Origin: Lysobacterales bacterium
GTDB lineage: Bacteria; Pseudomonadota; Gammaproteobacteria; Xanthomonadales; Rhodanobacteraceae
Assembly (NCBI GenBank): GCA_017305055.1
Contig: JAFKMZ010000010.1
Coordinates: 1-64,000, forward strand
DNA: 64,000 nucleotides
Reading direction: 5' to 3'
In this document: one piece after another, positions 58,461-61,047 of the stretch
How positions within the stretch are numbered: position 1 is the first letter of the stretch
How the letters are laid out: each line of letters starts with the position of its first letter
Notes under the pieces: generated by a model
What the model was told of the DNA's origin: nothing
Seen by the model: the letters and a program-made list of their open reading frames with translations, nothing else
Databases searched by the model: none
Translations under genes and position numbers: made by a program

Positions 58461-59378
58461 TCAGACCTTCTCCAGCCAGCCCCACTGGTCACGGGTACGA
58501 CCATCGAACAGGCCGAAGAACAGTTCCTGCAGGCGCCGCGTCACCGGACCGGCCTTGCCCGCACCCACCTGCTTGCCGTCCACGGAGCGGATTGGAGTGA
58601 TCTCGGCCGCCGTGCCGCACATGAAGACTTCATCGGCCAGATACAGGTATTCGCGCGGCAGGTCACGTTCGACCACGTCGATGCCCTCGGCACGCGCGAG
58701 CTTGCGCAGGCTGTCACGCGTGATGCCGGCGAGGATGGAAGCACTCGCCGGTGCGGTGTGCAACGCACCGTCGAACACCAGGAACAGGTTCTCGCCCGCC
58801 CCTTCACTGAGCAGGCCCGAGGCGGACAAGGCGATACCCTCGCCAAAGCCGCGCTCGCGCGCCTCGCGGGCAATGAGCTGGCCGGACAGGTAATTGCCAC
58901 CGGCCTTGGCGCCGGCCGGGATGGTGTTCGGGGCGAAGCGCTGCCAGCTCGACACGCAGGCGGTGATGCCGGTCTCCAGCGCCTCGGGACCAAGGTAGGG
59001 ACCCATCGGCCAGGCGGCGATGGCCACATCGATCGGTGTATCGGCCGACAAGCCGAAGCCACCCAGGCCCCGATACGCCAGCGGCCGGATATACGAAGCC
59101 GTGAGACGGTTCCTGGTGATGACCTCGCGTGTGGCCGCGGCCAGCTCCTCGGCCGAATACGGCAGCACCATGTCGTAGATCTTGGCCGAGTGGTAAAGCC
59201 GCCGCAGGTGGTCGGTCAGGCGGAAGATCACCGCGCCGCTCGGCGTGGCGTAGCTGCGGATCCCCTCGAATACCGATGAGCCGTAGTTGAGCGCGTGCGA
59301 CATGACGTGCGCGGTCGCGTCCTTCCATGGTTTGATCGAACCGTTGTGCCAGACCCAATCGGGATATTGCTGCGCCAT
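58461..59378 (-). CDS. ilvE: Branched-chain amino-acid aminotransferase
   Basis: This 305-residue fold-IV PLP enzyme makes Leu, Ile and Val from their keto acids. The PLP lysine is K158 in IPAGAKAGGNYLSGQL; HALNYGSSVFEGIRSY, SYIRPLAYRGLGGFG, EGAGENLFLV and VFMCGTAAEITPIRSVDG match the family. The ATG at 59378 follows a strong AAGGAGG site. The longer open frame upstream (to 59657) runs into the structured repeat and is rejected. Confidence 0.95.
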   Translation of the reverse strand: MAQQYPDWVWHNGSIKPWKDATAHVMSHALNYGSSVFEGIRSYATPSGAVIFRLTDHLRRLYHSAKIYDMVLPYSAEELAAATREVITRNRLTASYIRPLAYRGLGGFGLSADTPIDVAIAAWPMGPYLGPEALETGITACVSSWQRFAPNTIPAGAKAGGNYLSGQLIAREARERGFGEGIALSASGLLSEGAGENLFLVFDGALHTAPASASILAGITRDSLRKLARAEGIDVVERDLPREYLYLADEVFMCGTAAEITPIRSVDGKQVGAGKAGPVTRRLQELFFGLFDGRTRDQWGWLEKV

Positions 59379-59555
59379 GACGTTCCTCCTTAGCCTGGCA
59401 CCATCATAGCCGCCCACGCCAACACCTGACGACCCACGACCGCCGACGCCGATACCGGTGGGTGACCGCCACCTCACCGCAACGTTGCGCCCATCGTCGG
59501 GAACCGCGCCGGCGGGCGCCGCCCTCGTCATTTTGCCGACCCCAAGATTCGAAGC

Positions 59556-59800
59556 AAGAGCTTTTCGACTGCCTTCGGCAGGCGAGTCACTTTTCTCTGT
59601 TTGGCCAGAGAAAAGTAACCAAAAGAGAGGCCACCCCGCTTGGCGCTTCCTGGGCATCGTGCCCAGGAAGTCCGTGAGCCGGAGCCGGGCTTTTCGGCGG
59701 TATATCCATATACCGTCGAAAAGGCATCGGCGTCATGCCGATGCCCGCTCCGCGGCCTGATCGTCTCCGTCTCACCGCCGCACAGGGGACCCATAAGAGC
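59556..59800 (+). repeat. Copy A of the multi-hairpin module
   Basis: Hairpins in order: CTGCC-ttc-GGCAG (59569-59581); CTTTTCTCTG, loop TTTGGC, CAGAGAAAAG (59590-59615); CTTCCTGGGCA, loop TCG, TGCCCAGGAAG (59646-59670); a 15-bp stem beginning CTTTTCGGCGGTATA with loop TCCA and one G-T pair (59690-59723); GGCATCGGC, loop GTCAT, GCCGATGCC (59723-59745). A long-range GCCTGAT/ATCAGGC pair (59755-59761, 59809-59815) may close its 3' part. Confidence 0.8.
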
Positions 59801-59954
59801 GAGCGCGCATCAGGCAACTGCTCCTGCGTTGCCTCCACTCAGGCATCCATGCCTTCCCCTGCGCGCACTCCTTGAAAAGCCAGCAAGTTCGCGCTGTCGC
59901 GCTTCCGCAGCGGCGCAGCCGCTGCGCACCGAGTGCGGGCCAGGCATGGCCCGC

Positions 59955-60202
59955 CCACTCTTCGGGGCCCCTGTGCGGCGGTGAGGCTGGGACGACCAGG
60001 CCCGCAGGGTGCTCGGCAGGGGGCCGAGCATTTCTCGACGGTACAAGGATGTACCGCCGAGAAACCCGGCCCAGCCTCACGGACTTGCCGCCCATGGAGT
60101 GGGCGGCAAGCGCCAAGCGGGGTGTCGTTTTCTCTTGGTTACTTCTCTTTTGGACAAGCAAAAGAGAAGTGACTCGCGCGACGAAGGCGCACGAAAGCTC
60201 TT
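59955..60202 (-). repeat. Copy B of the multi-hairpin module
   Basis: Counterparts of copy A in reverse order on the plus strand: ACTTCTCTTTTG with CAAAAGAGAAGT (60141-60170), 6-nt loop; CTTGCCGCCCA with TGGGCGGCAAG (60084-60110), 5-nt loop; TTTCTCG-x-CGGTACA with TGTACCG-x-CGAGAAA (60031-60064), 4-nt loop; TGCTCGGC with GCCGAGCA (60010-60030), 5-nt loop. The single mismatch of the third stem is A-C on the plus strand but G-T on the minus strand, as in copy A read in its own direction. Confidence 0.8.
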
Positions 60203-60307
60203 GATTGATGAAGCCACGGGCGCAAGCCCAAACGAGAGCGGCGCGCGCCCGCAGGGGATTCCCTTCGGTCACTAGCAGGCTCCTGTAAAAGAGCGGGGGA
60301 AGCGGGG

Positions 60308-60886
60308 CTATGGGGTGCCGGTGCCGGTGCCGGCGCCGCGCAGCCACAGGCAGCCGGCACGCTGGACCACATCAAAGTGCAGGGCCTGCACGCCTTCGGG
60401 ATCTCCGGCGGCACCCGTATCCACAACCAGCATGGTCGGGACCGGCGCCACTTCCGGCGCCGAATCCGATGGTGCCGGGAGGTCGCCCTCATCCTCCCCG
60501 GCCGGTTCCGTGGTGAGGCTGAGCAAGGGTCGACGCATGATGCCCTGTAGGGCGCGGATGTCGGCGACCGCGGCATGTGTTCCGTAACCGCCCCACAGCA
60601 TCACGGCGGCCAGGCGATTGGCGTCACGCGCGGCAAATGCCTCGATCACCACGCGCTTGAGCTGGTTGGCGTTGGCCGCACACAGCATGACCGGTGCCGG
60701 CGGTCCCGCGACGGGCGGCGTCGCCGGGCTGCGCATCACCGGCGTGGCGTCGAGCGTCGCACATGGCTGATCGGTGAACACCGGGTTGCCATTGGTGCCC
60801 ACACAGCGATGGATCACGGTCTGCGCTGCCACCGGCAACATGCCGGTCAACGCGAACAGGAACACCAGGGCAAGCAGGGGGCGCAT
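60308..60886 (-). CDS. Exported DUF4124-type protein
   Basis: This ~192-residue protein has a signal peptide (MRPLLALVFLFALTGMLPVAAQ). A DUF4124-like motif follows (VIHRCVGTNGNPVFTDQPC), then a Pro/Ala linker and a C-terminal domain ending in LHFDVVQRAGCLWLRG. The last residues are a Gly-Thr repeat encoded by three GGTGCC-type hexamers (60314-60330). Such periplasmic proteins are common in Xanthomonadales; function is unknown. The start at 60886 is chosen so that the signal peptide is at the N-terminus. Confidence 0.72.
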   Translation of the reverse strand: MRPLLALVFLFALTGMLPVAAQTVIHRCVGTNGNPVFTDQPCATLDATPVMRSPATPPVAGPPAPVMLCAANANQLKRVVIEAFAARDANRLAAVMLWGGYGTHAAVADIRALQGIMRRPLLSLTTEPAGEDEGDLPAPSDSAPEVAPVPTMLVVDTGAAGDPEGVQALHFDVVQRAGCLWLRGAGTGTGTP

Positions 60887-61047
60887 CGGCCCAGCATACG
60901 GGATCGACAACGCACTGCCGCAGATCCACCCCGCTGCCCGTGACGCCAGTCTCGGTCGTCACACCACCGGCGCAGCATGCCCAGCAGGCACGGCCGGCAG
61001 AAGCCTCTGGGGCGTTGTCGCCCGGACGCCTTTGCCCGCCCGCGCCG

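Follow-up and report, generated by a model that had tools for sequence, protein, structure and literature searches.

Paired inverted modules of a dispersed bacterial family as candidate mobile elements for triplex-capped, putatively CsrA/RsmA-binding RNAs

Results

Position and make-up of the element

In the window (that is, the whole stretch of 64,000 nucleotides that was analysed, from a host genome available as a 3.5-Mb draft assembly), we observed two inverted modules of about 250 nt that belong to a dispersed family and are conserved as a folded single strand. The explanation that we prefer, and to which we give about half of our confidence, is that the region is a non-autonomous mobile element specifying triplex-capped, putatively CsrA/RsmA-binding RNAs.

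Copy A lies at about 59556-59808 and copy B at about 60202-59949, where the earlier note had placed them, and the hairpins that it quoted were all found in the sequence. The 17-nt block CACCCCGCTTGGCGCTT is 100% common to both copies. The TCACCGCCGCACAGGGG stretch is part of a 39-nt arm pair at 87%; another arm pair spans 74 nt and is 78% complementary. The extent of the module proved larger than had been proposed, since a 5'-tail region lies at the centre and REP-like motifs lie outside the copies of many relatives. In what follows, the functional strand is the one opposite to that on which the earlier note read the modules; on this strand, paired modules point outward from the centre. The features are the following.

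58464-59378, minus strand: class IV aminotransferase gene, ilvE-like (Aminotran_4)
59379..60307, no strand assigned: interval enclosing the entire insertion, from the aminotransferase start to the stop of the next gene
60308-60910, minus strand: neighbour gene on the far side of the insertion
59556..59808, functional strand minus: module A, 3' (predicted triplex) end on the left
59949..60202, functional strand plus: module B, 3' (predicted triplex) end on the right
59621..59628, minus strand: module A, loop L1 as predicted third strand, TCTCTTTT; 8/8 parallel match with AGAGAAAA in the purine arm
59586..59619, minus strand: module A, long stem S2 with its arms at 59606-59619 and 59586-59599
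59602..59606, minus strand: module A, S1 strand located within the loop of S2, partner 59629-59633
59629..59633, minus strand: S1 partner strand of module A
60123..60126, plus strand: S1 strand of module B, TGTC, partner GACA at 60153-60156
60128..60136, plus strand: module B, loop L1 as predicted third strand, TTTTCTCTT; 9/9 parallel match with AAAAGAGAA (60160-60168)
60138..60173, plus strand: module B, long stem S2 with its arms at 60138-60152 and 60159-60173
60040..60055, plus strand: GGA-loop hairpin of module B, GGTACAAGGATGTACC, CsrA/RsmA-type
60084..60110, plus strand: hairpin of module B, loop ATGGAGT
60009..60031, plus strand: module B, body hairpin lacking GGA, loop region CAGGGGG
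59699..59714, minus strand: GGA-loop hairpin of module A, GGTATATGGATATACC
59813..59833, minus strand: central hairpin with loop GGA in the 5' tail of module A, from sequence
59842..59853, minus strand: central hairpin GGCATGGATGCC in the 5' tail of module A, from sequence
59646..59671, minus strand: module A, body hairpin lacking GGA, loop CACGATG
59723..59745, minus strand: module A, body hairpin lacking GGA, loop CATGACG

Secondary structure and functional strand

A 209-nt model (R2) found 104 modules from 68 sources of the same genus. Over a structure of 66 pairs and 100 distinct modules, 97.2% of the cells were standard pairs, as compared to 44-51% when the partners were slid by 1-3 columns. 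Double-sided changes were present in 45 of the 66 pairs (908 cells), a result that none of 500 shuffles equalled. The pattern thus lies well outside what chance would give. The R2 alignment had been fitted to the structure; an independent MAFFT alignment of 31 modules (A1) gave double changes in 31 of 65 pairs. Compensatory change in the stems, noticed earlier between the two copies, thus extends to the congeneric modules, and covariation in both alignments bears out the view that selection acts on a folded single strand. That the module is a structured element under selection for its fold is well supported.

The strand is a different matter. The wobble pairs, the folding energy, the GGA loops, the Rfam matches and the triplex geometry favour the strand opposite to that of the earlier note. 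On the strand read there, 64 wobble cells were A.C and 34 were G.T (47 and 17, respectively, when two pairs judged dubious after viewing the table were left out). Because an A.C on that strand is a G.U on the other, this asymmetry favours the other strand. The functional strand also gave the more stable fold in 104/104 modules, with a mean of -120.7 kcal/mol vs. -109.8 kcal/mol. The non-Watson-Crick position in the fourth stem is indeed a G-T in both window copies, each read in its own direction, yet it is uninformative on the strand: in the family this position is a 1x1 mismatch (A.G 61, A.A 28, G.T 7 and A.T 4 on the strand of the earlier note, n = 100) and therefore the strand argument drawn from the G-T fails.

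Open frames do run over the element, which lies in GC-rich DNA, and could be taken for a conserved small protein. Every frame is interrupted in some of the 99 full-length modules (the best one is open in 64/99), open-frame lengths drop in all three frames across the modules, and the changes track pairing. A coding function is therefore hardly credible, in keeping with the opinion that peptides read from the region are spurious.

A predicted triple-helix pseudoknot at the 3' end

Upstream of the outer hairpin S2, as read on the functional strand, lie a pyrimidine tract and a short strand, S1, which pairs with the S2 loop. S1 was paired in 90.4% of cells over five pairs and in 95.9% over four, with 40 double-change cells, while the slid control reached at most 40.2%; judged by eye, S1 differs between families. 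Since S1 pairs with the S2 loop, the pyrimidine tract corresponds to loop L1 of an H-type pseudoknot, and L1 in this topology crosses the deep groove of S2. When L1 was read parallel to the purine arm of S2, a Hoogsteen match was observed: 712 of 718 letters were canonical in 94 modules (532 U.A-U, 180 C.G-C and 6 other letters). Where a stem pair is inverted to U-A, the third strand has G in 4/4 cases (L163, L164, L174 and L183), which gives a natural G.U-A triple; in DNA triplex work, G is the base that reads such inverted pairs. A further 22 cells of the third-strand table are not Watson-Crick in S2, nearly all of them in misaligned or decayed rows. One base is absent jointly from all three triplex strands in window copy A and in L031.

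The match also holds across families. Heads, the outer 83 nt of the module, were found with a covariance model (R1) and parsed without scoring L1; this strict parser accepted 71 of 102 heads and failed on 31, and 39 of the 44 distinct heads matched at 7-8 of 8 positions. The match was 0.91 at register 0, 0.42-0.43 at shifts of 1 and 0.53-0.58 at shifts of 2, and in a permutation test on 20 head types 0 of 20,000 permutations reached the observed mean. A looser parser, the junction of which was defined too loosely, parsed 94/102 heads (71 distinct, 35 at 7-8) and gave a weaker, still significant result (38 types, mean 5.13 vs. 4.42 permuted; 0 of 20,000 as high). In another head parse, 72 of 81 distinct heads matched at 7-8 of 8 and the other 9 look false. 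These data argue for a selected triple helix, with U.A-U and C.G-C triples in the major groove, which we predict from sequence and regard as very probable.

Two other arrangements were considered. The mirror symmetry of two purine tracts had suggested a purine-motif triplex on the strand of the earlier note; it was abandoned, since on the opposite strand the common pyrimidine motif results and the H-type topology fits, and since the wobble, energy, GGA and Rfam evidence agree on that strand. An alternative duplex, with the third strand Watson-Crick paired to the purine arm, is disfavoured by the register test and by the G at inverted pairs, with the caveat that in tracts having one G or one GAG core the mirror image nearly equals a shifted copy.

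GGA loops and CsrA/RsmA

On the functional strand, three body hairpins have GGA loops (in 91/99, 93/100 and 91/100 modules) on stems that are variable, and a fourth body hairpin has a GGA loop in 1/98. In the window itself, GGA is present in just 3 of the 6 body loops of copies A and B. The CsrA/RsmA consensus is given as A(N)GGA (PMC4066749). In 61 loci, mostly one per genome, 70 GGA-loop hairpins were counted on the functional strand vs. 14 on the opposite one, and two or more such hairpins were present in 21 loci vs. 0. Likewise, 79 heads from named records gave 100 vs. 23.

In a scan of the window, Rfam returned no family at gathering score for the element, the sole match being a tRNA elsewhere in the window, and a relaxed scan of the window gave nothing useful. 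Among the 32 loci scanned, TwoAYGGAY (RF01731) gave 7 matches in 5 loci, all on the functional strand of the bodies. This RNA has AYGGAY-loop hairpins and is predicted to bind CsrA (PMC4333381). The likeness lies in the AYGGAY-type hairpins; the family differs in that the body is matched in part, six of the seven matches covering about model positions 43-126 of 168, and in that most loci, as well as the window, remain under the cut-off. The passages on TwoAYGGAY in PMC4333381 mention no triplex, pairs or mobility.

The csrA gene was present in 47 of 58 genomes. In 39 csrA-positive genomes, 87 GGA hairpins were counted in 64 heads (11 on the opposite strand), as compared to 13 in 30 heads of 10 csrA-negative genomes (8 on the opposite strand). 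The window's genome, as well as G639 and G753 (no usable body), is not part of this comparison, nor are six csrA-positive genomes without a parsed head. At least 1.5 GGA hairpins per head were found in 16/39 csrA-positive and 0/10 csrA-negative genomes (Fisher p = 0.02, kinship ignored; 7 of the 10 csrA-negative genomes belong to one family). The other 23 of the 39 csrA-positive genomes were under this value, and Pasteurellaceae have csrA and no GGA hairpins. CsrA binding is thus not universal in the family, because Pasteurellaceae and several other csrA-positive genomes have GGA-free bodies. In Pasteurella multocida, an outward pair (L161, 3989-4441) lies between dapF and the DUF484-xerC operon, and its body is GGA-free, of the AACTCGCT-like class in relatives.

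The Xanthomonas loci contained 8 family heads with 18 GGA-loop hairpins on the functional strand vs. 2 on the other. We lean, by a narrow measure, towards binding of CsrA/RsmA by Xanthomonadales-type copies; that these would act as a sponge titrating CsrA/RsmA is a more tentative suggestion, possible rather than probable.

Distribution of the family

The 647-bp stretch matched in 24/24 other genomes of the same genus that were searched, with 4 to 51 match rows per genome, where both strands of one copy count as separate rows; the supposition of a dispersed family was therefore right. Its range, given earlier as Xanthomonadales, was too narrow, as carriers occur in many other genera of Pseudomonadota. 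R1 matched 63/398 Pseudomonadota species in 44/213 genera (E <= 0.001) and 79/369 sampled species of the class in 62/272 genera (E <= 1e-4). An exact-pattern scan gave at least 120 matching stretches; named hosts among the matches listed include Dyella, Xanthomonas, Luteimonas, Lysobacter, Stenotrophomonas, Burkholderia, Cupriavidus, Silvimonas, Methylomonas, Aggregatibacter, Actinobacillus, Psychromonas and a Desulfobulbus MAG, and the MAG labels Ruminococcus and Sphingobacteriaceae, also among them, may be contamination. In a species of another class (L098, G075), a weak head keeps S1 and, by eye, 6/8 third-strand matches, so that the range of the family may extend beyond Gammaproteobacteria.

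One genome, G228, contained 70 heads. Among 72,556 plasmid records, one relative's element was present in 6 and the window-type element had no match; E. coli, queried just with one relative's element, gave nothing useful, and phages, queried just with the G228 element, gave two partial matches only. Heads also lie at extreme contig ends in G263 (C6, C14, C27, C28), G245 (C13) and G000 (C6), because repeats interrupt draft assemblies. In literature searches, titles and the beginnings of abstracts held no description of the element family, and the core-motif strings were absent from full texts, subscription papers and preprints lying outside this scope.

Insertion and mobility

In 15/15 congeners, the aminotransferase gene directly adjoins its neighbour; the space between them is short (about 40-90 bp, judged by eye) and contains no head. 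The filled site of the window, compared to this empty site, indicates that the window copy is an insertion; insertion by mobility is highly probable on these genome comparisons. In G228, the elements are about 860 bp long and have terminal inverted repeats with GGACTGGCAAGTTTGTGTG; in the window element, inversion was seen for the modules themselves. No target-site duplication was visible by eye at 11 G228 copies.

The REP-like motif GTAGGAGC lies outward of 41/101 modules, as compared to 7 in the reversed orientation and 1 in 94 far windows (same genus). A scan allowing two mismatches was too loose (79/102 outward, 56 reversed, 29 in far windows) and was set aside. As to the suggested link with RAYT-like transposases, a search of the window's own genome, G000, found no Y1 transposase (PF01797) at E <= 0.001, although REP-like motifs are present outside many copies. 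On contig C1 of G024, two opposite heads overlap within 85-87 bp at 2419558-2419645 and at 2305414-2305499, as if the bodies had been deleted.

Arrangement, gene context and enclosed genes

Of 24 cases in six genomes in which heads neighbour each other within 1 kb, 20 were outward pairs, holding 40 of 82 heads; G228 was excluded from this count, its second head being mostly too decayed for the model. With our own codon-usage gene caller, 40 of 45 sites were flanked by genes on both sides. These comprised 20 convergent, 20 tandem and 0 divergent sites (n = 40, four wide pairs counted twice), while all 136 adjacent gene pairs in those loci, element sites included, were 96 tandem, 20 convergent and 20 divergent. 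Tandem sites with single or same-orientation modules were 3 sense and 4 antisense (n = 7), and this lack of a sense bias gives no help to a read-through model. An intrinsic-terminator T-run was lacking after the 3' end (4/102 vs. 1/96).

The genome of the window has another pair beside fliP (L362, 2112-3534, contig C76 of G000). In five other species (L173, L197, L169, L177 and L180), a pair lies between fliP and a fliQ-like gene, inside the flagellar operon; the module types differ and some are apparently flipped. The pairs beside fliP in six species indicate that some copies persist.

Nine outward pairs were picked for their width of about 0.9-3 kb; each encloses one frame or two, in many cases with a lower GC content. 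The enclosed product is a TIR protein in L182, a CAP12/Pycsar-type TIR protein with a PADLOC PDC-S35 match in L185 and a HEPN protein in L081; the frames in L186, L140, L122/L354, L128, L143 and L353 had no above-cut-off Pfam match and no PADLOC match. As only 3/9 enclosing pairs have TIR or HEPN matches, the cargo is not claimed as a defence-island system. Elsewhere, a KAP-family NTPase (L082, 1484-3004; PADLOC PDC-S20) has an outward pair on one side and a third head on the other, and single detected modules are adjoined by an HNH endonuclease (L170, 3594-4466; PADLOC HNH) and by a trypsin-like protease (L178, 2960-3940).

Discussion

In the explanation that we prefer, the region would be one MITE/BIME-like non-autonomous insertion with two outward-facing modules, each giving, from its functional strand, a structured RNA of roughly 250-330 nt. 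The modules are presumably transcribed: a transcript entering from a neighbouring gene, in either direction, would include one functional module. Its body would be multi-hairpin, with loops that often carry CsrA/RsmA-type GGA, closed by a CCCC/GGGG stem. At the 3' end, in an H-type pseudoknot, an 8-10-nt pyrimidine loop would occupy the S2 major groove and form a U.A-U / C.G-C triple helix, which may cap and stabilise the transcript, while the hairpins may bind and titrate CsrA/RsmA.

The telomerase RNA pseudoknot also has a pyrimidine third strand in the major groove, and the family would resemble telomerase RNA, MALAT1 and PAN in this strand and in its predicted U.A-U and C.G-C triples, although it is bacterial, multicopy and carried in mobile-looking elements. 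These two triples are those reported for the MALAT1 triple helix (PMC12609000). The same source gives three to five consecutive triples for the majority of validated natural RNA triple helices, whereas 8-9 are predicted in the family. Several GGA-loop hairpins on one strand are also a property of the sponge RNAs CsrB/CsrC and RsmX/Y/Z (PMC4333381 and general knowledge); in contrast to these, the family is dispersed and multicopy, forms inverted pairs, ends in a predicted 3' triplex pseudoknot and has no recognised promoter, and its binding is predicted. REP/BIME sequences with RAYT share the intergenic location, the paired inverted arrangement and the GTAG-type motifs outside many copies. The family elements are far larger, their conserved part is a structured module, and the window's genome is without Y1 transposase. 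The R0-R200 repeats of P. fluorescens form intergenic families, 50-352 bp long and present in many copies, of which some are MITE-like; they show a tail-repeat-tail bias (PMC2718517). Compared by description only, they are alike in being multicopy, intergenic and in part MITE-like, and differ in that the portions of that account concerning them refer to neither a triplex nor a CsrA link.

A purely selfish non-autonomous element would need the fold as ssDNA, for transposition or recombination by a trans-acting enzyme, and its GGA loops would be by-products. Such an element would agree with the species-specific insertion, the high copy numbers, the outward pairs, the terminal inverted repeats in G228, the REP-like motifs outside 41/101 modules and the avoidance of divergent gene pairs. 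We nevertheless consider it unlikely, given that the GGA loops are strand-specific and rarer without csrA, that the window's genome has no Y1 transposase and that the pairs beside fliP persist in six species. The gene context could also be read in terms of a bidirectional 3'-UTR cassette, in which the outward triplexes would protect or define the 3' ends of neighbouring transcripts and the CsrA sites would merely modulate. The triplex is located at the outer 3' ends, inverted pairing works for both directions, and sites are convergent or tandem and never divergent in the 40 counted. On the other hand, the 3' ends are not followed by an intrinsic-terminator T-run, and tandem sites with modules in one orientation show no sense bias. 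Insertion at the least harmful site, as proposed for the P. fluorescens repeats (PMC2718517), accounts for the context as well, and a cassette of this kind seems to us quite improbable.

The functional-strand 5' ends face each other at the centre, as would be expected of independent small-RNA genes with their own divergent promoters there. Almost no conservation was found upstream of the conserved 5' end in 83 modules, and a scan of the window gave no promoter-like site inside the element; we give this possibility very little credit.

If the preferred reading, that of a mobile element specifying triplex-capped RNAs, is true, common bacteria would have many copies of a triple helix of the telomerase/MALAT1 type, and its natural variation would be sufficiently clear for base-triple rules to be read off genomes. 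In Xanthomonas, rsmB-type antagonists of RsmA 'have not been identified', in the words of a 2014 account (PMC3937308), and the GGA-loop hairpins of the Xanthomonas heads make this gap directly testable. The elements lie inside a flagellar operon in several species and at times enclose a single foreign-looking gene. More broadly, and as a speculation that we hold to be doubtful, beta- and gammaproteobacteria may harbour an unrecognised class of mobile RNA elements: outward triplex-capped pairs that would spread by insertion and titrate CsrA/RsmA. Post-transcriptional control on a global scale would then vary with copy number and position. RsmA antagonists like those reported as missing from Xanthomonas would belong to this class, and single genes, at times of the defence type, would lie between the halves of some copies.
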